Assembly: GCF_027532945.1 (NCBI RefSeq)
Contig: NZ_JAPZTZ010000029.1
Location: 62,001 to 126,000 of the forward strand
DNA: 64,000 bases
Reading direction: 5' to 3'
DNA from: Phreatobacter sp.
Lineage (GTDB): Bacteria > Pseudomonadota > Alphaproteobacteria > Rhizobiales > Phreatobacteraceae
Translations under genes and position numbers: made by a program
Shown: positions 13,843-64,000 of the stretch, one piece after another
Layout of the letters: every line of letters starts with the position of its first letter
Position numbering within the stretch: the first letter of the stretch is position 1
The notes under the pieces: model-generated
What the model was told of the DNA's origin: nothing
The model's input: the letters and a program-made list of their open reading frames with translations, nothing else
Database searches by the model: none

Positions 13843-15633
13843 TCATGGTTGCGGCGCGTCTCCCGTCGTCGCCAGCGCGATGCGGCGGGTGAAAATCGAG
13901 GCTGCCATGGTCCGGTGGGACATCGTGATCAGCACTGAAAGCGGCAAAGCCTCCCGGATCTTCCGGAAAAGCAGGGTTTCGGTCTCCTGTGACAGAGCGC
14001 TGGAGGCGTCGTGCGTGAGGATCCAGCGCGGTTGATGGACAAGCAGCCTGGCAAAGCCAAGTCTCTGCTGGTCCTCGATCCCCAGTTCCTGCGCCCATAA
14101 AGACGTTGTCACAACCTGCGCGGCAAGATGGACCAAGCCGACATCGGTCGGGGCGCGGCAGACCAGATCATGAGAGACGTCGTCGGGGCCGAGGGGCTCG
14201 GCAATCACCTCGAGCAATGTCGCCTCGGGCAGATAGGGCTTATCCGTCAGGAAGAAGATGTCGCCGTCGTTCGGAAGCACGATTGCCCCTGCGCCGTCGG
14301 TCGGCAGGCCGGCAATGGCACCGATCAGGGCCGTTGAGGCCTGCGGCGTCGCCTCGATCAAGACGCGCTCGCCTTGACGGACCTCGGTCGTCAGATCGTT
14401 CACCAGTCTGTCGCCAGATGGACCGACGATGGTGAGAGCGGAGAATGTGAGGACCGGCCCGTCACCGATCGTCCGCGACACCAGGCCCGAGGAGGCTCCC
14501 TCCCCTACCCGGAGCCGATCGATGGCGTCGCCTAAGGCGAGCACGCGGGATGCCGAGGCCTGCCATTGGGCGATCATCGCATAGTTCGCCGACAGCCAGG
14601 ACAGCGCCATCGTAACCTGGCCGAAGGCGATCGCCACCTGCATCAGCGTGCCGAGGGTGATCGCACCATTCAGGTATCTCGGTGCCATGATGAGGAGGGG
14701 CAGAGTGCCGGTCAGCAGCGCCAGGCCCGACGAGAAGAACATGAGATTGCGGAACGAGGCAGTTTGAACCGCCCATGCCCGCCGGATCGCGTCGAAGGAG
14801 CGTGCCAGCCGACGCCTCTCGCCAGCCTCTGATCCTGTGAGCGCAATGGCGGGCGCCTGAGCCACGATATTGACGAGGCGTGACCGATATTGGGCCTCGG
14901 CCGCCTGTCGGAGATCTGTGGCCTTCACCAGCGGATGACCCACGACGGTGATCAGGGTCGAAGCGATGATGGCATACGCGATCGCGACGAAGACCATATG
15001 CCCCGGCACAGTTACGGATATGGTCCCGGCACTGACGGTGAGCGGGCCTGAATAGAGCCAGAGGACCCCTGCGAACAGGACGAGCTGCACGAGGGCGTAG
15101 AGCAGCGACACCGCAAACTCGACGGCCATCTCGCAGACGATGCGAATGTCCTCTGCGATGCGGGCATCCTCGTTGGTGTGGTCGCCCGCCATCGACCTCA
15201 GGCGATAGTAGTGTCCCTCTGACATCCATCTGTCGCGCACCAACGTCGTCAGATGTGATCTCAGTGCCATCTGCAGCTTCATCTTCGTCTGCAGGCTCAG
15301 GCCCTGGAGAGTCATCATGCCCAGGAGCAGGCCCGCGAGGATCCAGATCTGGCTGTGCAGGCTCGCGTAGGATCGCGCCTCCAGGACGTCGAAGAAATCC
15401 GCGTTCCAGGTGGCGAGCCGCAAGACGACCAGCACCTCGACAACGGTCACTGTTCCGACGAGAACCGTAAGCGCCAGAATGCGCCAACGACCGGGTTTGC
15501 GAGCGACACCGGCGATCAAGGCGAGCATCCGGAGAGACGACCGACCTGGACGCGGGCTCGAAGCAAGACGAGCACGAACCGCAGCATTGGCGGCAAGCTG
15601 TTCCCTCAGAGCGGTGAGGTCGTTGAACAGCAT
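13843..15633 (-). CDS. SbmA/BacA/YddA-like ABC transporter with degenerate ATPase domain
   Basis: This 596-residue protein has an N-terminal membrane domain of the SbmA/BacA-like ABC type (pfam ABC_membrane_2): LATWNADFFDVLEARS, then HYYRLRSMAGDHTNEDARIA and EDIRIVCE, with about six hydrophobic segments in the first 330 residues. The C-terminal part (about 380-596) aligns with an ABC ATPase but its motifs are broken. Walker A is replaced by ATPQASTALIGA with no GK(S/T), the Q-loop glutamine is lost (FFLTDKPYLP), the signature reads LGIEDQQRLGFAR, and Walker B reads WILTHDASSAL where LDEATSAL is expected. Only the H-loop His (MSHR) is kept. The frame is intact. It may work without ATP hydrolysis, as SbmA does with the proton gradient, or it may be an early relic. 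Confidence 0.75.
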   Translation of the reverse strand: MLFNDLTALREQLAANAAVRARLASSPRPGRSSLRMLALIAGVARKPGRWRILALTVLVGTVTVVEVLVVLRLATWNADFFDVLEARSYASLHSQIWILAGLLLGMMTLQGLSLQTKMKLQMALRSHLTTLVRDRWMSEGHYYRLRSMAGDHTNEDARIAEDIRIVCEMAVEFAVSLLYALVQLVLFAGVLWLYSGPLTVSAGTISVTVPGHMVFVAIAYAIIASTLITVVGHPLVKATDLRQAAEAQYRSRLVNIVAQAPAIALTGSEAGERRRLARSFDAIRRAWAVQTASFRNLMFFSSGLALLTGTLPLLIMAPRYLNGAITLGTLMQVAIAFGQVTMALSWLSANYAMIAQWQASASRVLALGDAIDRLRVGEGASSGLVSRTIGDGPVLTFSALTIVGPSGDRLVNDLTTEVRQGERVLIEATPQASTALIGAIAGLPTDGAGAIVLPNDGDIFFLTDKPYLPEATLLEVIAEPLGPDDVSHDLVCRAPTDVGLVHLAAQVVTTSLWAQELGIEDQQRLGFARLLVHQPRWILTHDASSALSQETETLLFRKIREALPLSVLITMSHRTMAASIFTRRIALATTGDAPQP

Positions 15634-15756: not shown

Positions 15757-15770
15757 TTGATGCACATCAA
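15757..15770. promoter_or_regulatory. Perfect FNR/FixK-type box
   Basis: TTGAT-GCAC-ATCAA matches the FNR consensus TTGAT-N4-ATCAA at all ten positions, and the dyad extends by two bases each side (CCTTGAT-GCAC-ATCAAGG). It lies 112 bases before the DUF3309 start and about 125 bases before the divergent SbmA-like start. If it acts at -41.5 on the plus strand, transcription would start near 15805. Which side it controls is unknown. Confidence 0.65.
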
Positions 15771-15875: not shown

Positions 15876-16040
15876 ATGTCTATCGGCACCATTCTCGTTA
15901 TCATCCTGATCGTCTTTCTACTCGGTGGCTTTAGCGGCCGCTTCGGTGGCTACGGTTATGGCTTCGGCCACGGCGGCGTGGGCGCGCTCGGCACCATCCT
16001 CATCATCGTCCTTGTCCTGATGCTCCTCGGCCGCCTGTGA
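15876..16040 (+). CDS. DUF3309 family small membrane protein
   Basis: This 54-residue protein is almost entirely two hydrophobic segments (IGTILVIILIVFLLGG and LGTILIIVLVLMLLGRL) joined by a Gly/Tyr/Phe-rich loop, as in the DUF3309 family common in Proteobacteria. The start is set by an AAGGAG ribosome-binding site nine bases before ATG 15876. An in-frame extension to 15705 reads through the promoter region and is rejected. It is probably an inner-membrane protein of unknown function. It follows an FNR box and precedes cytochrome b561. Confidence 0.8.
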   Translation: MSIGTILVIILIVFLLGGFSGRFGGYGYGFGHGGVGALGTILIIVLVLMLLGRL

Positions 16041-56597: not shown

Positions 56598-57176
56598 TCA
56601 GCCGGGGCGCCGGCGGATCTCGAACCGGCATTCGGCAGCCCCCGCCGCGGCGCAGGCCGTCTCTCGGCAGCGGCAATCGGGCGCCACCAGCACGCGGTAG
56701 AGCCGCTCGAAGACCGCCGCGTGCCAGGCGCAGAGCGGCTCCCCGGCCTGTTCGCCACGCACCAGTGGATTATCGCGCAGCGTGAAGGTCCAGGAATCGA
56801 TCCGCCGGAATGATCCCGAGCCGGCAAATGTCCAGGCGTTGCGCTCGATGGCCCGCGACAGCAGCGGAGCGGCAAGGGCGGCGGGAAGTGCCTTCAGAAG
56901 ACGCTGCGCTGCCGCAGGGATGCGGTGGGCGAGGATGTAGTCGGCGGTCGCCGCGCCGGCCTCGCGTTCGAGGGCCTCCGCATCGGGCGCGGTGCGCAGG
57001 GCCCGGTGCAGGGCCGCGGCCTCGCCTTCCGGGATCATCGCGTCGCCCGTCGGCAGGCGAGAGAGCCGTGCCGCTGCCATCACCTGAGCGAGGCGGGCCT
57101 CACCGCCGTGGCGGCGGATCACCGCCGCGTGCTGGAGCACGGCATTGGGGCCGATGACGGCGCCGCCGCTTGCCAT
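56598..57176 (-). CDS. bchJ: BchJ-type protein (V4R domain), bacteriochlorophyll synthesis
   Basis: This 192-residue protein has GPNAVLQHAAVIRRHGGEAR at the N-terminus, a central alpha/beta segment, and a C-terminal V4R domain with CAWHAAVFERLYRVLVAPDC and the clustered cysteines CRCRETAC then ECRFEI. This matches BchJ, once called the bacteriochlorophyll 4-vinyl reductase and now thought to help tetrapyrrole intermediates along rather than catalyse that step. It follows bchE by 21 bases with an AGGAGG site between, the order found in purple phototrophs. Confidence 0.85.
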   Translation of the reverse strand: MASGGAVIGPNAVLQHAAVIRRHGGEARLAQVMAAARLSRLPTGDAMIPEGEAAALHRALRTAPDAEALEREAGAATADYILAHRIPAAAQRLLKALPAALAAPLLSRAIERNAWTFAGSGSFRRIDSWTFTLRDNPLVRGEQAGEPLCAWHAAVFERLYRVLVAPDCRCRETACAAAGAAECRFEIRRRPG

Positions 57177-57197: not shown

Positions 57198-58820
57198 TTA
57201 CATTGCCGGCGCCGCGGGACCGCCGCCGCAGGCGCGGATCTCGGCGCGCTCCTTCATTTGGGTGCGCACGGCATCGCGGCGTTCGGCGGCACGCGCCGCT
57301 CGGTCGGCGGAGGCCTCCCAGTCCTCGAGCTGCGCCTCGGCGAGGGTGCGGGTCTCGTCGAAATGGAAGTCGACCGTCTTCTTCGTCTGCGGACCCCAAT
57401 AGCCGGCCTTGCCGAGGTCGTAGAAGCTGCGCTTGAAGCCGGCGCGCAGGAAGGCATAGAGGCATCCCAGCAGATAGCGGCGGCGGAAGCCGGTGCCGCG
57501 CCAGGGGTAATGCAGGAGCGCCTTCTTCATGTAGAAGCGGCGGTAATTGTTCATGACGCCGTCGAGCAGCTCGCCGCGCTCCATGGCCGCAGGCTTCATG
57601 ATCGGCGTGACGAAATTGTACTTGGAGAAGTCGAAGACCTCGACCTGGTCCTTGATCTCCTGGAACAGCGGCGTGAAGGGCCAGGGCGTGTACATGGACC
57701 AGTTGGCGAGGTCCGGCTGCCAGTCCCAGGCCATGCGGTAGGTCTCTTCCAGCGTCTGCGGCGTCTCGTTGTCGAGACCGACGATGAACTGCGCCTCGAC
57801 GAAGATGTCGGCCTCGCGCAGCAGGCGGATCGCCGTCTTGTTCTCGTCGACCTTGGTCTCCTTGTTGAACTGGTCGAGCTTCAGCTGCGCCGCGGCCTCC
57901 GTGCCGAGGCTGACATGGACGAGGCCGGCCTTGCGGTAGAACTTCAGGTCGTCGCGGTCGCGATAGATGTCGGTGACGCGGGTGTTGATGCCCCATTTCA
58001 CCTTGTCGGGCAGGCCGCGGGCGATCAGCTCCTCGCAGAAGGCGACGAACTTCTTCTTGTTGATGGTGGGCTCCTCGTCCGCGAGGATGAAGAAGCCGAC
58101 GCCATGGTTGACGACGAGATCCTCGATCTCGTCGACGACGTCCTTCGGGTCTCGGACCCGGTAGTCGCGCCAGAACTTCCACTGCGAGCAGAAGGAGCAG
58201 GTGAAGGGGCAGCCGCGCGCGAGGTTCGGGATGGCGACGCGGGTGCCGAGGGGGATGTAGATGTATTTGCTCCAGTCGAGGATCGACCAGTCCGGCTTGA
58301 TGGTCGCCATGTCCTTGACGGTTGCGGCCGCCGCCGTGGCGACGATCTGGTCGCCGTCGCGGAAGGCCAGGCCCTTGATGGAGGAGCGCGTTTCGGGCCA
58401 GCGGCCGTCGCGGATGGCGCTCATCAGCTCGGTGCAGATTTCCTCGCCCTCGCCGCGGACGATGACGTCCACCCAGGGCGCCTCGCTCAGCACCTGTTTG
58501 TACATGAAGGTGGCGTGGACCCCGCCGAGCACGCGCACGGCGTTCGGGACGGTCTCCTTGGCGATGCGCAGCACCTCCTCGGCCTTGTAGATCGACGGGG
58601 TGATGGAGGTGACGCCGATGGCGTCGGGCGTAAGCTCGGCCATGCGGCGGGCGAGGTCCTCGCTCGTCACGTTATCGGTCATGGCGTCGATGAAATGGAT
58701 ATCGTCGAAGCCGGCACGTCGCAGGTGGCCGGTCAGATAGGCGACCCACGACGGGGACCAGGTGCCGGCGATCTCCGCGCCACCGGAATGGTAGTTGGGG
58801 TGGACGAAGAGGATCCGCAT
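57198..58820 (-). CDS. bchE: Anaerobic Mg-protoporphyrin IX monomethyl ester oxidative cyclase (B12-binding radical SAM)
   Basis: This 540-residue enzyme forms the isocyclic ring of bacteriochlorophyll without oxygen. It opens [20 protein letters not shown], the BchE start. A cobalamin-binding Rossmann domain covers about residues 1-150 ([20 protein letters not shown]). The radical-SAM cluster ligands are C204, C208 and C211 (CPFTCSFC), followed by [35 protein letters not shown] and [20 protein letters not shown] match BchE at the C-terminus. It is preceded by a control region with two recognisable operators and followed by bchJ. Confidence 0.96.
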
Positions 58821-58836
58821 GGCATGCCTCCCTGTG

Positions 58837-58854
58837 TGTCAAATAAAGTTGACA
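58837..58854. promoter_or_regulatory. PpsR/CrtJ-type operator of bchE
   Basis: TGTCAA-ATAAAG-TTGACA is a perfect palindrome that fits the PpsR/CrtJ consensus TGT-N12-ACA exactly. It ends 17 bases before the bchE start codon, so it lies at or next to the transcription start, where binding would block it. Confidence 0.7.
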
Positions 58855-58873
58855 CGTGAGGCGACGCGACGGG

Positions 58874-58887
58874 TTGACGCAGATCAA
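58874..58887. promoter_or_regulatory. FNR/FnrL-type box of bchE
   Basis: TTGAC-GCAG-ATCAA matches TTGAT-N4-ATCAA at nine of ten positions. Its centre is about 60 bases before the bchE start and about 40 bases from the likely transcription start, the usual place for activation by FNR. Confidence 0.55.
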
Positions 58888-58903
58888 GAAAGCGGCCGTC
58901 GCC

Positions 58904-59497
58904 TCAGTCGGCTTCCACCGTGAGGCCGACTGGCCGGGCCGAGGCCTCCAGCCAGTGGAGCAGGCTGCCGGCAAGGCTGCGCGGGATGGCGAGGGTCACC
59001 GTGGCGCGGTCATCGCTCATCCACAGCGTGACGCCGACATGGGCGATGGCCGTCACGGCGACATCGTCGGCAGCGAAGGCGGCGGGGTGGAGGTCGAGGC
59101 GCAGGCCCTTCTCCAGCACATCCACGAGACGCGGTCCGGAGAGGTCGAGGATGGCGTTGGCATCGGACTGGTCGACCACGGCGGCGAGCCCGTCCAGCGC
59201 TGCCGTGAGGTCGGCGACCAGCGCCGGCCGGTCGCCGAAGACGAGCCAGGTGCCCGGCCCGGTGCCAAGGACGGTGACGTCTCCCCCAGACGTCCGCTTC
59301 CCGCCGTCCACGACAGGCGCGCCAAGCATCCGCCCGAGTGCCGTCGCCGCGTCTGCCGCCTTGCCGCGCCGCGCGATCACAGTCGCCGCGGCGAGCCCGG
59401 CGCGCTCCACGGCTTTCAAGCCCTCGCCGCTGCCGATGCGGCGGGAGAGGCCGGCAAAGCCGCCACGGTGGGTCCAGTCGCTGACAGGATCAGCCAT
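58904..59497 (-). CDS. soxG: Sarcosine oxidase subunit gamma
   Basis: This 197-residue protein starts MADPVSDWTHRGGFAGLSRR at ATG 59497, which overlaps the end of soxA by eight bases. The C-terminal part (LVFGDRPALVADLTAALDGL, then DQSDANAILDLSGPRLVDVL) has the GcvT-like fold of SoxG. It is the smallest conserved catalytic-complex subunit after delta and completes the heterotetramer. It is the last sox gene, 84 bases before bchE, with no obvious terminator between. Confidence 0.9.
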   Translation of the reverse strand: MADPVSDWTHRGGFAGLSRRIGSGEGLKAVERAGLAAATVIARRGKAADAATALGRMLGAPVVDGGKRTSGGDVTVLGTGPGTWLVFGDRPALVADLTAALDGLAAVVDQSDANAILDLSGPRLVDVLEKGLRLDLHPAAFAADDVAVTAIAHVGVTLWMSDDRATVTLAIPRSLAGSLLHWLEASARPVGLTVEAD

Positions 59498-62450
59498 GGA
59501 GGCGTGCTCCTTCCGGATCGACGAAGACGGGGGATACGATGGTCGCCACCACGTCGCCTGATCGGACGGGGTCGTGGATGCGCACCTCCTCGCCATGGCG
59601 GGCCGGGCCGTTCGCCACCAGCGCCAGGGCGATCCATGAGCCGAGCGTCGGACTATAGGCCGTGGATGTCACGTAGCCCTGGTCGTGCTCGGCGGTGGGC
59701 GGCACGCCAAGCGGCAGGACATGGGCACCGGAGCGCAGGCGGACGCCGGCAACGGTCGGCTTCAGGCCGACGAGGGTCGGGCGCGAGGCCTCGTTCAGCG
59801 CGGCACGTTCGGCCATGAGGCGGCCGACATAGTCCTTCTTCTTCGACAGCATCCGGCCGAGGCCGAGGTCGCGCGCTACCGTCTGGCCGTTGAGTTCGGC
59901 GCCGGCGACATGGCCCTTCTCGATGCGCATGACGGCCAGCGCCTCCGTGCCATAGGGCGTGACGCCGAGGTCCCGGCCGGCCGCCATGAGCGCGCGCGCG
60001 AGGGCGTCGCCATAGCCGGCCGGCACGGCGATCTCATAGGCGCGCTCGCCCGAGAAGGAGATGCGGAAGAGCCGCGCGCGCGTCGGCCCGAGGGCCAGGG
60101 TGGTGCAGCCGAGATAGGGCAGGGCGGCGTCGGAGACATCCGCCTCCGGCCCGAAGAGCGCCTCGAGAAGGTCGCGCGAGCGCGGTCCGGCGACGGCGAA
60201 CTGTGCCCATTGCTCGGTGACCGAGACCATCTGGACATCGAGCTCCGGCCATAGGACCTGATGGCAGAAGGCGAGGTGCTGCATGACCTTGCCGGCATTG
60301 GCGGTGGTCGTGGACATGACCCATTCGTCCGGACCCAGACGCGCCGTGGTGCCGTCGTCCATGACGAAGCCGTCCTCGCGCAGCATCAGGCCGTAGCGCA
60401 CCTTGCCGACGGGCAGGGTCGAGAAGGTGTTGGCATAGACGCGGTCGAGGAAGGTGCCGACATCGGGGCCCGAGAGCGCGATCTTGCCGAGGGTCGAGAC
60501 ATCGCAGATGCCGACGCCCGCGCGCACGGCCTCGACCTCGCGGGTGACGCTCTGCAGCCAGTCCGTCTCGCCGGCCTTCGGGAACCATTGCGCCCGAAGC
60601 CAGGGTCCTGATTCCACGAAGATCGCGCCCTGCTCCTTGGCCCAGCCATGGGCGGGGGTGAGGCGGGTCGGCTTGAAGTCGCGGCCACGGTGGAGGCCCG
60701 CCAGCGCGCCGATGGCCACCGGCACATGTGGCGGACGGGCACGCGTTGTCCCGGTCTCCGGGATGGTGCGGCCGGTCAGCGCCGCAAGGATGGCGAGGCC
60801 GTTGACGCTGGAGGTCCGACCCTGGTCGGTGGCCATGCCGAGCGTCGTGTAGCGCTTGAGGTGCTCGACCGAGACGAAGCCTTCGCGGGCGGCGAGCGCC
60901 ACATCGCTGTCGGTGACGTCGTTCTGGAGGTCGACGAAGGCCTTGCCGCGGCCGCCCTCCACATGGAACAGCGGCGCCACCGCGCAGGGCTCGTCGCCGG
61001 CGCGGAAAGCCGGCGTCTCGGCGGGCGTGTGACCGGCCTCGCGGGCGGCCTCCGCGCCGAGCCTTGCGCCGTCGGCAAGAGCCGCGGCGAGGGTGAAACG
61101 GCCGGCGGCGGCGCCGGCCACGGCGACATTCGCCGGCAGGTCGCCGGGAATGAAGGCCGCGCGCTCATCCGACCAGACGGGCTTGTGACCGAGATGGGTG
61201 GTGAGGGCGAGGTCCGGATTGAAACCGCCGGAGACAGCGAGGCCGTCCACGGCGAGGCGGCGGCGGCCATGGTCGCCGACGATGTCGATGGCCCTGAGCG
61301 ACTGTCCGCCGATGGCGTCGAGCACCCGCGCGCCGAGGAAGACCGGCACGTCGCCGGCCAGCGCCCGGACCGCCTCCGGCACCTCGCGCCGCGCATCGAT
61401 GATCGCGGCAAGCGGGGACCCGGCGCGGGCGAAGCTCGCGGCGGTCTGCCAGCCGTCATCGGTGGTGGTGAAGAGCGCCACTTGCCTGCCTGGCAGGGCG
61501 GCATAGCGCTCGACATAGGTCCTCATGGCGGAAGCGAGCATCACGCCTGGCCGGTCATTGCCGCCGAAGACGATGGGCCGCTCGATGGCTCCGGCGGCGA
61601 GAAGGATGCGCTTCGGCACGAGCGTCCAGAGCCGCTGTCGCGCCTCGCCGGCCGGCGTCACCGGGAGATGGTCGGTGAGCCGCTCCACTGCGCCGACCTC
61701 GCCGTCATAGAGGCCGAAGGCGCTGGTGCGGGTGAGGATGCGGACGTTGGACAGGCTCTTCAGCTCGGCTTCCACCTCGCCGGCCCAGACGGGACCGGGC
61801 ATGGCGTCGACCTCGACCCGCTCGCAGAGGAGCCGTCCGCCAAGGCGGAAATCCTGGTCGACGAGGATGACCCGCGCCCCGGCGCGCCCGGCCGTGAGCG
61901 CGGCAGCAAGGCCGGCAGGGCCTGCGCCGATCACCAGCAGGTCGCAGAAGGCATGGGCCTTCTCATAGGCGTCCGGATCGGCGGCGCCGGAGAGACGACC
62001 GAGGCCCGCGGCGCGGCGGATGGCGGGCTCGTAGAGCCGCTCCCAGAGCGCCGCCGGCCACATGAAGGTCTTGTAGTAGAAGCCCGCGCCGAGGATCGGC
62101 GCAGCGAACTGGGCGATGGCCTGGATATCGAAGGCAAGCGAGGGCCAGCGGTTCTGGCTCGCCGCGTCGAGGCCGGGATGGAGCTCGATGGTGGTGGCGC
62201 GGGTGTTGGGCTCGCGCCGGGGGCCACGGCCCTTCTCGACCAGCGCGTTCGGCTCCTCCGGCCCCGCCGAGACGATGCCGCGGGGGCGGTGATACTTGAA
62301 CGAGCGGCCGACGAGACGGATGCCGTTCGCCACCAGCGCCGAGGCCAGCGTGTCACCGGCATGGCCGGTGAGCGGCCGGCCGTCGAAGCTGAAGCCGATG
62401 GGGGTCGCGCGGTCGATCAGGCCGCCGGAGGCGAGGCGATGGCTGGTCAT
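59490..62450 (-). CDS. soxA: Sarcosine oxidase subunit alpha
   Basis: This 986-residue large subunit starts MTSHRLASGGLIDRATPIGF at ATG 62450; the longer frame to 62879 crosses soxD and soxB. The N-terminal part has a ferredoxin-like segment (FDGRPLTGHAGDTLASALVA). Then comes the NAD/FAD-type fold with LVIGAGPAGLAAALTAGRAG. The C-terminal third is a GcvT-like folate-binding domain (EVEAVRAGVGICDVSTLGKI and GLMLREDGFVMDDGTTARLG). It receives the methyl group of sarcosine as methylene-tetrahydrofolate. Length is normal for the heterotetrameric enzyme. Confidence 0.95.
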   Translation of the reverse strand: MTSHRLASGGLIDRATPIGFSFDGRPLTGHAGDTLASALVANGIRLVGRSFKYHRPRGIVSAGPEEPNALVEKGRGPRREPNTRATTIELHPGLDAASQNRWPSLAFDIQAIAQFAAPILGAGFYYKTFMWPAALWERLYEPAIRRAAGLGRLSGAADPDAYEKAHAFCDLLVIGAGPAGLAAALTAGRAGARVILVDQDFRLGGRLLCERVEVDAMPGPVWAGEVEAELKSLSNVRILTRTSAFGLYDGEVGAVERLTDHLPVTPAGEARQRLWTLVPKRILLAAGAIERPIVFGGNDRPGVMLASAMRTYVERYAALPGRQVALFTTTDDGWQTAASFARAGSPLAAIIDARREVPEAVRALAGDVPVFLGARVLDAIGGQSLRAIDIVGDHGRRRLAVDGLAVSGGFNPDLALTTHLGHKPVWSDERAAFIPGDLPANVAVAGAAAGRFTLAAALADGARLGAEAAREAGHTPAETPAFRAGDEPCAVAPLFHVEGGRGKAFVDLQNDVTDSDVALAAREGFVSVEHLKRYTTLGMATDQGRTSSVNGLAILAALTGRTIPETGTTRARPPHVPVAIGALAGLHRGRDFKPTRLTPAHGWAKEQGAIFVESGPWLRAQWFPKAGETDWLQSVTREVEAVRAGVGICDVSTLGKIALSGPDVGTFLDRVYANTFSTLPVGKVRYGLMLREDGFVMDDGTTARLGPDEWVMSTTTANAGKVMQHLAFCHQVLWPELDVQMVSVTEQWAQFAVAGPRSRDLLEALFGPEADVSDAALPYLGCTTLALGPTRARLFRISFSGERAYEIAVPAGYGDALARALMAAGRDLGVTPYGTEALAVMRIEKGHVAGAELNGQTVARDLGLGRMLSKKKDYVGRLMAERAALNEASRPTLVGLKPTVAGVRLRSGAHVLPLGVPPTAEHDQGYVTSTAYSPTLGSWIALALVANGPARHGEEVRIHDPVRSGDVVATIVSPVFVDPEGARLHG

Positions 62451-62707
62451 GCCGGGCTCCGCGTCGCGGCGAGGCGGGCGTTCGATATGGCGTGGTCGCG
62501 GGTGTCGCGTGTCACGACCAGCCAGGAGCGGCAGCCCTGCGCGTGGTACCAGAGTTCCTCCATCGGGCCGGCCGGATTGGCGCGCAGGTAGACATAATCC
62601 GCCATGGCCGCGGCGTTGCCAACCGCCGGGCGGCGCGGGGCCGCATCGCCGTGATAGGCGAATTCGGAACTGTCGCGCGGGCCGCAATAGGGGCAGGGAA
62701 TGCGCAT
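62447..62707 (-). CDS. soxD: Sarcosine oxidase subunit delta
   Basis: This 86-residue protein has the zinc ligands C5, C8 (CPYCG), H55 and C59 (WYHAQGC) of SoxD. The stop overlaps the soxA start by four bases. It binds zinc and holds the complex together. The spacing of six bases to soxB upstream completes the canonical soxBDAG order. Confidence 0.95.
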   Translation of the reverse strand: MRIPCPYCGPRDSSEFAYHGDAAPRRPAVGNAAAMADYVYLRANPAGPMEELWYHAQGCRSWLVVTRDTRDHAISNARLAATRSPA

Positions 62708-62713
62708 CGGGCC

Positions 62714-63964
62714 TCAGTGCAGGTTCGGTTGGGCGCCCTGGCCCTTCTCGTCGATGACGCGGCCGAGGGCGAAGCGGTCGAGGCGGAGCGCGGTCGCCGC
62801 CGGATGCGGCTCGTCGCGGGCGATGAGATGGGCGAAGGCATAGCCGGAGCCGGGAATGGCCTTGAAGCCGCCGTAGCACCAGCCGGTGTTGAGATAGAGC
62901 CCCTCGACCGGCGCATGGTCGATGATCGGCGAGCCGTCCATGGACATGTCCATGACGCCGCCCCAGCTGCGCAGCATCCGCGCCCGGCCGATGGCGGGCA
63001 TCAGCGCCATGCCGCCCTCGCAGACATCCTCGACCACGGGCAGGTTGCCGCGCTGGGCGTAGGAATTGTAGCCGTCGATGTCGCCGCCGAAGACGAGGCC
63101 GCCCTTGTCGGACTGGCTGATGTAGAAATGGCCGGCGCCGAAGGTGATGACCCCCGGAATGATCGGCTTCAGGCCCTCGGAGACGAAGGCCTGCAGAACG
63201 TGGCTCTCGATCGGCAGGCGGAAGCCGGCCATGTCGGCCACCTGCGACGAACTCCCGGCCACCGCCATGGCAACCTTGGCGGCGCGGATCGTGCCGCGGG
63301 TCGTCTCGACGCCGGTGATGCGGCCACCTTCACGCAGGAAGCCGGTGACGGCGCAGTTCTGGACGATATCGACGCCGCGGTCGCTTGCCGCGCGGGCATA
63401 GCCCCAGGCCACCGCGTCATGGCGCACCGTGCCGCCGCGCCGCTGCAGGAGCCCGCCCTGAATGGGGAAGCGGGCATTGTCGTAGTCGAGGAAGGGATAG
63501 AGCCGGCGCACGGCCCCCTGGTCGAGGAGTTCGGCATCGATGCCGTGCAGCCGCATGGCGTTGCCGCGGCGGGCATAGGCGTCGCGCTGGGCGTCGGAAT
63601 GGTAGAGGTTCAGGACGCCGCGCTGGCTGACCATGGCGTTGTAGTTGATGTCCTGCTCCAGCCCTTCCCACAGCTTCAGGGACAGTTCGTAGAGCGGGAT
63701 ATTGCCGGGCAGCAGGTAGTTCGAACGGATGATCGTGGTGTTGCGGCCCACATTGCCGCCGCCGATCCAGCCGCGCTCCAGCACCGCGACATTGGCGATG
63801 CCGTGGGTGCGGGCGAGGTAATAGGCGGTGGCGAGGCCGTGCCCGCCGCCGCCGATGACGATGACGTCATAGGCGGGCTTCGGCGCCGCATCCCGCCAGG
63901 CCGGCGTCCAGCGCCGGTTGCCGGTGAGCGCGCCGGCGAGAAGCGAGACGACCGAGTAGCGCAT
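62714..63964 (-). CDS. soxB: Sarcosine oxidase subunit beta
   Basis: This 416-residue FAD/FMN subunit demethylates sarcosine. It has VIVIGGGGHGLATAYYLART (FAD-binding glycine motif, residues 35-54), RNTTIIRSNY and RRGGTVRHDAVAWGYA, where H182 corresponds to the His that bonds covalently to FMN. NTGWCYGGFKAIPGSGYAFA is the C-terminal FAD contact. The start at 63964 is 36 bases from the window edge, so the promoter of the operon is mostly outside. Confidence 0.95.
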   Translation of the reverse strand: MRYSVVSLLAGALTGNRRWTPAWRDAAPKPAYDVIVIGGGGHGLATAYYLARTHGIANVAVLERGWIGGGNVGRNTTIIRSNYLLPGNIPLYELSLKLWEGLEQDINYNAMVSQRGVLNLYHSDAQRDAYARRGNAMRLHGIDAELLDQGAVRRLYPFLDYDNARFPIQGGLLQRRGGTVRHDAVAWGYARAASDRGVDIVQNCAVTGFLREGGRITGVETTRGTIRAAKVAMAVAGSSSQVADMAGFRLPIESHVLQAFVSEGLKPIIPGVITFGAGHFYISQSDKGGLVFGGDIDGYNSYAQRGNLPVVEDVCEGGMALMPAIGRARMLRSWGGVMDMSMDGSPIIDHAPVEGLYLNTGWCYGGFKAIPGSGYAFAHLIARDEPHPAATALRLDRFALGRVIDEKGQGAQPNLH

Positions 63965-64000
63965 GGCGGGGCGGGTTCTCCGGAGCGGCGACGCGAGCCT

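Follow-up and report, generated by a model that had tools for sequence, protein, structure and literature searches.

The bchE locus and its neighbourhood

The window, i.e., the whole stretch of 64,000 nucleotides analysed here, carries the bchEJ unit on the minus strand, and a sarcosine oxidase operon (sox beta, alpha and gamma) lies directly ahead of it on the same strand, within 58821-64000. The features that frame the region are as follows:

58904-59596, minus strand: soxG-like gene, end of the sarcosine oxidase operon, 83 bp upstream of bchE
58827-58833, minus strand: likely ribosome binding site AGGGAGG, from the sequence
57198-58820, minus strand: bchE (TIGR02026, 824 bits against a cut-off of 481)
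56598-57176, minus strand: bchJ, second gene of the bchEJ unit (TIGR02019)

A genome-wide profile search found one bchE copy above the family cut-off. Its ATG at 58820 is supported by the alignments of most relatives, which begin at query residue 1 among the matches listed; the nearest named BchE match among them was L007 (94%). Within the genus the gene is patchily present, being found above cut-off in four of the 12 genomes sampled. The genome also encodes PpsR (TIGR02040, 404 bits against a cut-off of 275) on another contig, C6, which contains at least five AT-rich palindromes among the TGTN12ACA matches listed; bchEJ is therefore apparently separate from the main photosynthesis cluster. 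Six Crp-type helix-turn-helix matches exceeded the cut-off in the genome, and of the two strongest, whose cysteines were checked, one has the FNR-type cluster C-x2-C-x7-C. The gene for this cysteine-bearing Crp/Fnr protein has an FNR box with one mismatch about 75 bases before its likely start. FnrL was reportedly studied in Rubrivivax by Ouchane et al. in 2007.

The regulatory elements described below all fall within the 83-bp gap between the soxG-like gene and bchE. Transcripts of the sarcosine oxidase operon could instead run on into bchE and supply most of its expression, with a minor local promoter. In favour, the soxG-like gene ends close by on the same strand, no terminator-like site was found in 58780-59000, and soxG also lies upstream of bchE in the congener L083. 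Against it, the congener L088 keeps both box and palindrome although no soxG match was found in the 1.5 kb upstream of its bchE. We consider such read-through very improbable.

An FNR box and a PpsR palindrome before bchE

Two recognizable sites were located between the ribosome binding site and the soxG-like gene:

58874-58887, minus strand: FNR-type box TTGATCTGCGTCAA, -67 to -54 from the ATG, centre -60, nine of ten consensus bases
58837-58854, minus strand: PpsR/CrtJ operator (position 2) TGTCAACTTTATTTGACA, -34 to -17, perfect 6+6 palindrome TGTCAA-N6-TTGACA

The first-pass annotation had claimed a perfect TGT-N12-ACA palindrome 17 bases before the bchE ATG, which is correct to the base, and a nine-of-ten FNR box about 35 bases further upstream, which is likewise correct, as the two centres are 35 bp apart (position 2 therefore being offset +35). 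The box has one mismatch to TTGAT-N4-ATCAA, and an activator with FNR-type cysteines is encoded in the genome, as expected of an FNR/FnrL promoter. Similarly, as expected of a PpsR/CrtJ operator, the palindrome is of the TGT-N12-ACA type, precedes a gene of bacteriochlorophyll synthesis and occurs in a genome with a PpsR/CrtJ gene; PpsR binding is published for the R. sphaeroides motif at the corresponding place (see below).

Each motif alone means little. TGTN12ACA matched the window six times against 3.8 expected, a number equalled or exceeded in 19 of 100 shuffles, and it was dropped as evidence in its bare form, since it is not enriched genome-wide (265 matches versus 253 for the reversed control). 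FNR boxes with at most two mismatches numbered 12 versus 8.1. The fuller pattern TGTCAA-N6-TTGACA, with up to two mismatches allowed, has a single match in the window, which is the bchE site and is exact; at least one match occurred in 40 of 100 shuffles. The combined pattern of FNR box, 18-20 bases and PpsR palindrome has a single match in the 4.13-Mb genome, and that match lies before bchE. The strong evidence is conservation.

Elsewhere in the window, a perfect FNR box, TTGATGCACATCAA, is present at 15757-15770, flanked by a transporter-like gene on the minus strand (13843-15633) and a short plus-strand open reading frame that starts at 15876.

Fixed spacing across bchE upstream regions

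bchE loci were gathered from named genome contigs (at least 80 loci) and from further genomes, the window's own included. The 112 BchE loci gave 101 distinct upstream regions, after leaving out eight without a match to the window protein at 1e-60, two without upstream sequence (L007 and L091) and one duplicate (L118, of L025). An FNR-like box with at most two mismatches was present in 95 of the 101 regions, which form the scored set, and absent from the other six. In each region the best-scoring box from -110 to -40 relative to the ATG was used, and some of those chosen (L119, L121) may therefore have arisen by chance.

Relative to the box centre, exact TGTN12ACA palindromes were concentrated at a few offsets: +35 in 43 rows, +34 in eight and +36 in six (57 of the 95 rows, the window's among them), +10 in 35 and -10 in four. 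The remaining 96 offsets between -40 and +60 held eight palindrome matches in all. We refer to +34 to +36 as position 2 and to +10 as position 1. By these labels, 43 rows (including the window) have position 2 only, 21 have position 1 only, 14 have both and 17 have neither, the last group counting one artefact, L077, which was scored at a box at -94 and really has both operators (box at -60, palindromes at -50 and -25). With one row per similarity group (65 groups at 65% identity), the corresponding numbers are 28, 16, 8 and 13. Where both operators occur, the palindromes lie 25-26 bp apart, leaving a gap of 7 bp in ten rows and 8 bp in four. The FNR-PpsR layout before bchE is not due to chance.

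The same layout was recovered by blind pattern searches. Among 248 Rhodobacteraceae genomes, one per genus, the FNR-N18-20-PpsR pattern gave 41 matches in 39 genomes, versus one for the reversed pattern; 30 of these lie before bchE, several being loci already among the 95 (e.g., L167, identical in sequence to L019), and the other 11 include BchC-like (L178), hemN-like (L199) and ccoN-like (L186) genes, named from their protein letters. The class-wide search of 385 genomes gave 14 matches, spread over 13 genomes, against three for the reversed pattern; four of the 14 lie before bchE. One of these four, a bchE at a contig end (L147, in G158), had been missed by the protein search at the strict limit.

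Plasmid-borne bchE genes of named organisms were also considered, in four of the six plasmid records with BchE (the other two are cyanobacterial). Three of the four have the layout, namely SC52 (-63/-53/-27), Roseinatronobacter (-59/-24) and Skermanella (-62/-26), and the gammaproteobacterial one (Thiodictyon, L165) has neither site within 130 bases. In the nine rows of the Erythrobacter/Sphingomonas clade, no exact palindrome was present in the 300 bases searched. Five Erythrobacter/Porphyrobacter-type rows (L033, L042, L053, L055, L068) keep TTGAT and have a box ending in CGCAA, lack exact PpsR palindromes, and have in common a CCCYCAC-TTGG-like stretch. Promoters of this type are possibly served by another regulator.

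The rows are related and not independent, and bchE and its promoter may have moved between lineages together. Both sites could then work while their spacing has no function and was inherited from one ancestral promoter travelling with bchE. Among the matches listed, the window's BchE shares 83-89% identity with proteins from genomes assigned by name to several other families, which would agree with a joint transfer of promoter and gene, and well-supported tree branches force few changes in operator position (see below). However, the distance from box centre to ATG is 55-69 bases in 85 rows and 71-100 in ten, and in four of these ten long-distance rows (L044, L047, L090, L123) the palindrome is still at +35 or +10; the spacer letters have diverged enough to split the 95 rows into the 65 groups; and the layout persists at 63-69% BchE identity (L114, L116, L123). 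In addition, operator positions change many times on the best tree, yet the sites are found at the same few offsets. A functionless, merely inherited spacing is thus quite improbable.

A half-site common to the FNR box and the PpsR operator

At position 1 the palindrome begins within the FNR box, in the form TTGATNNN-TGTCAA-N6-TTGACA, so that TGTCAA closes the FNR box as its right half and at the same time opens the PpsR palindrome as its left half (35 of the 95 rows). The corresponding place in the window is:

58862-58879, minus strand: position 1, CGTCAACCCGTCGCGTCG, CGT..TCG, three of the six defining bases off

Position 1 of the window is decayed or was never gained; the window has neither the shared half-site nor a tandem operator of the bchC type, and position 2 alone is intact. 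The congener L083 has CGTCAATTGGAGATGACG at position 1. A mirror form (-10) was seen in L061, L065 and L072; here the PpsR palindrome meets the FNR box from the other side, with its right half running into the left half of the box. By position, the form is also present in the same-phylum loci L121 and L122, the box of L122 having three mismatches.

The first-pass annotation knew of no description of its geometry of box and palindrome. That geometry proved to be real and conserved, but many relatives place the operator 25 bp further upstream, fused to the FNR box.

The position-1 pattern gave 30 matches in 129 Rhodobacteraceae genomes, 16 at bchE; of the other 14, one precedes a crtE-like gene (L218) and the rest have no obvious link. 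In the 385 genomes of the class it gave three matches, none at bchE (crtE-like, hemF-like and oxidoreductase genes, judged from the protein letters).

Outside bchE, the shared half-site pattern was seen before a hemF-like gene (L160, in G204) and before crtE-like genes (L159, in G342, and L218), and the FNR-PpsR fusion may accordingly serve beyond bchE. The BchC-like gene L178 (G982) has the full composite of FNR box, fused position-1 palindrome and position-2 palindrome.

Three further observations were set aside. (i) A G at box position 10 does not by itself prove a shared site, because many FnrL boxes reported for R. capsulatus have GTCAA at their end. (ii) Position-1 weight-matrix scores in rows with position 2 only have a second peak at +10, which is partly the FNR box itself. 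(iii) Covariation between the TG of the FNR box and the ACA of position 1 (35/21/5/34, p 9e-7) was not upheld on independent pairs (2.4 with versus 0.6 against, of six; median p 0.625).

The best BchE tree was built quickly and contains many poorly supported branches; it requires a minimum of 22 changes at position 1 and of 17 at position 2. When the branches with good support are considered by themselves, only 4 to 6 changes per label are needed. Turnover between the positions stands on the best tree. Compensation between them is not established: the raw table (14 both, 21 position 1 only, 43 position 2 only and 17 neither, of 95) gave an odds ratio of 0.26 (p 0.004), an effect that vanishes in a tree-aware analysis, with a median p of 1 for the eight tree-independent pairs on well-supported branches.

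Relation to the Rhodobacter sphaeroides promoter and its regulators

The bchE upstream region of genome G843 reads TTGACATGCATCAA-N19-TGTCAACTGAAATGGACA, with the box at -67 to -54 and the palindrome at -34 to -17, exactly as in the window. Its box TTGACATGCATCAA is the FnrL box reported for R. sphaeroides bchEJGP (PMC2908626), and its palindrome TGTCAACTGAAATGGACA is the PpsR ChIP-seq motif listed for R. sphaeroides bchEJ (PMC4344238). A base change at -57 in the FNR half-site removes about 90% of the FnrL-dependent reporter activity in R. sphaeroides (PMC4263372); this base is the T of TCAA in G843, and the T of TCAA in the window is also at -57. The identity of box, motif and mutated base suggests that G843 is R. 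sphaeroides. The R. sphaeroides bchEJGP promoter thus resembles that of the window in the gene, the two factors and the positions of box and palindrome, and differs in the letters of the box and in a second listed PpsR motif, which in G843 is about 550 bp upstream. A description of the FNR-PpsR spacing was not found in the parts of the published accounts of this promoter that were available.

That both regulators are known for bchE in purple bacteria, as stated in the first-pass annotation, agrees with the published binding of FnrL (PMC2908626) and PpsR (PMC4344238) in vivo at R. sphaeroides bchE. Transcripts of bchEJGP are higher in an R. sphaeroides fnrL deletion (PMC4263372), so that FnrL activation of bchE is visible in reporter fusions only. 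CrpK, too, binds and activates R. sphaeroides bchE (PMC4263372), and with six Crp-type matches in the Phreatobacter genome the box could serve a regulator of the FixK or CrpK type that has no iron-sulphur cluster, oxygen being sensed elsewhere. The FNR cysteine cluster in one of the two strongest of these proteins, and the FNR box before its gene, speak against such a regulator, which we consider distinctly unlikely.

The role of PpsR may be less simple. In R. capsulatus the CrtJ peaks at bchE are comparable whether or not oxygen is present (PMC5362033), and the effect on bchEJGP is altered by isoforms of AerR (PMC6199135). Rather than act as a simple oxygen repressor, PpsR/CrtJ could therefore remain on its site, respond to AerR or light, and be capable of activation too; this appears unlikely, as R. 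sphaeroides bchEJ is a PpsR target with a 9.6-fold change between ppsR mutant and parent (PMC4344238), and activation is hard to square with an operator over -15 to +3. The earlier proposal that activation without oxygen and repression with oxygen meet on one segment gains from the conserved geometry, found in G843 as well, but its oxygen-only repression may be too simple in view of the R. capsulatus peaks (PMC5362033).

Three other promoters invite comparison. At R. capsulatus bchC, two CrtJ palindromes 8 bp apart are bound cooperatively (PMC6199135), similar to the bchE rows with both operators and their gap of 7-8 bp; unlike bchC, the window has one exact palindrome, and the first palindrome of the bchE rows is fused to the FNR box. 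The same source places R. capsulatus bchEJGP among promoters with distant motifs (PMC6199135). At bchF of Dinoroseobacter shibae, PpsR motifs lie over the -10/start and over the -35, and the repressor over the -10/start is proposed to block polymerase (PMC10890935); the window likewise would have its repressor over the -10/start, but the available description of bchF, unlike the window, has no FNR box.

In class II FNR promoters the activator is centred at -41.5. The window would resemble these in the distance of the box to the predicted -10 and start, and would differ in that its predicted -10 coincides with a repressor half-site.

Proposed architecture and mechanism of the bchEJ promoter

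Two further elements were predicted in the window:

58846-58854, minus strand: predicted extended -10 (TGT CAACTT, -15 to -7), inside the left part of the PpsR operator, from base conservation
58839, minus strand: predicted start of transcription, an A 41.5 bp away from the centre of the FNR box, giving a 19-base leader

In the window, TGTCAACTT fits TGn-CAnnnT. The predicted -10 is poor, and a sigma-70 consensus scan found none. In the 21 rows with position 1 only, position 2 is better preserved in its left half than in its right in 17, less well in two and equally in two, with A at -11 in 86% and T at -7 in 71%. T at -7 is present in 45 of 57 position-2 operators versus 14 of 35 at the same palindrome place in position-1 operators (p 0.0003). 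The first-pass proposal, in which transcription begins some 41.5 bases downstream of the middle of the FNR box and PpsR lies over the -10 and +1, fits this base conservation and remains a prediction, with 58839 as the predicted start.

We propose that the bchEJ promoter is an activator/repressor promoter of fixed geometry, switched on by FNR without oxygen and off by PpsR with oxygen, and give this reading a probability of roughly 70%. Without oxygen, an FNR-type iron-sulphur activator on 58874-58887 would activate transcription from about -41.5, with a start near 58839. With oxygen, oxidised PpsR would occupy the palindrome, covering -15 to +3, and polymerase would presumably be blocked. The left part of the palindrome (TGTCAA plus CTT) may double as the extended -10, with TG at -15/-14 and CAnnnT at -12 to -7, and such a double use would explain why operator and activator site have been kept 34-36 bp apart. 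Across relatives, the repressor site is found over the predicted -10/start (position 2), 10 bp away from the centre of the FNR box (position 1) or at both places. As TGTCAA is common to the two sites at position 1, activator and repressor should exclude each other there. The start site, the -10 element, the occlusion and this mutual exclusion are all deduced from sequence.

A broader formulation is possible, although we hold it as tentative and somewhat doubtful: alphaproteobacterial bchE promoters would use one hexamer, TGTCAA/TTGACA, as FNR half-site, as PpsR half-site and, 25 bp on, as extended -10, and the repressor site would turn over between two fixed positions, so that the logic shifts (activator excluded versus start covered) while the output stays the same. 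The window would keep the start-covering form only.

Significance

The action of FnrL, CrpK and PpsR at bchE was already known, as were a PpsR motif over the -10/start (D. shibae bchF, PMC10890935) and paired CrtJ sites with an 8-bp gap (bchC, PMC6199135). In the accessible parts of the open-licence literature, no description was found of the fixed 35-bp spacing, of the half-site shared by FNR and PpsR, or of an operator half-site serving as -10. The window alone repeats the R. sphaeroides layout, and the new part is the rule across relatives. The composite layout helps to account for the degenerate appearance of the FnrL and PpsR sites of bchE when each is scored by itself. Fixed geometry, shared half-site and operator turnover together make these promoters a natural series for measuring operator position against oxygen response. 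bchE provides the oxygen-free route to ring E of bacteriochlorophyll, and its control sets when this oxygen-sensitive route runs.
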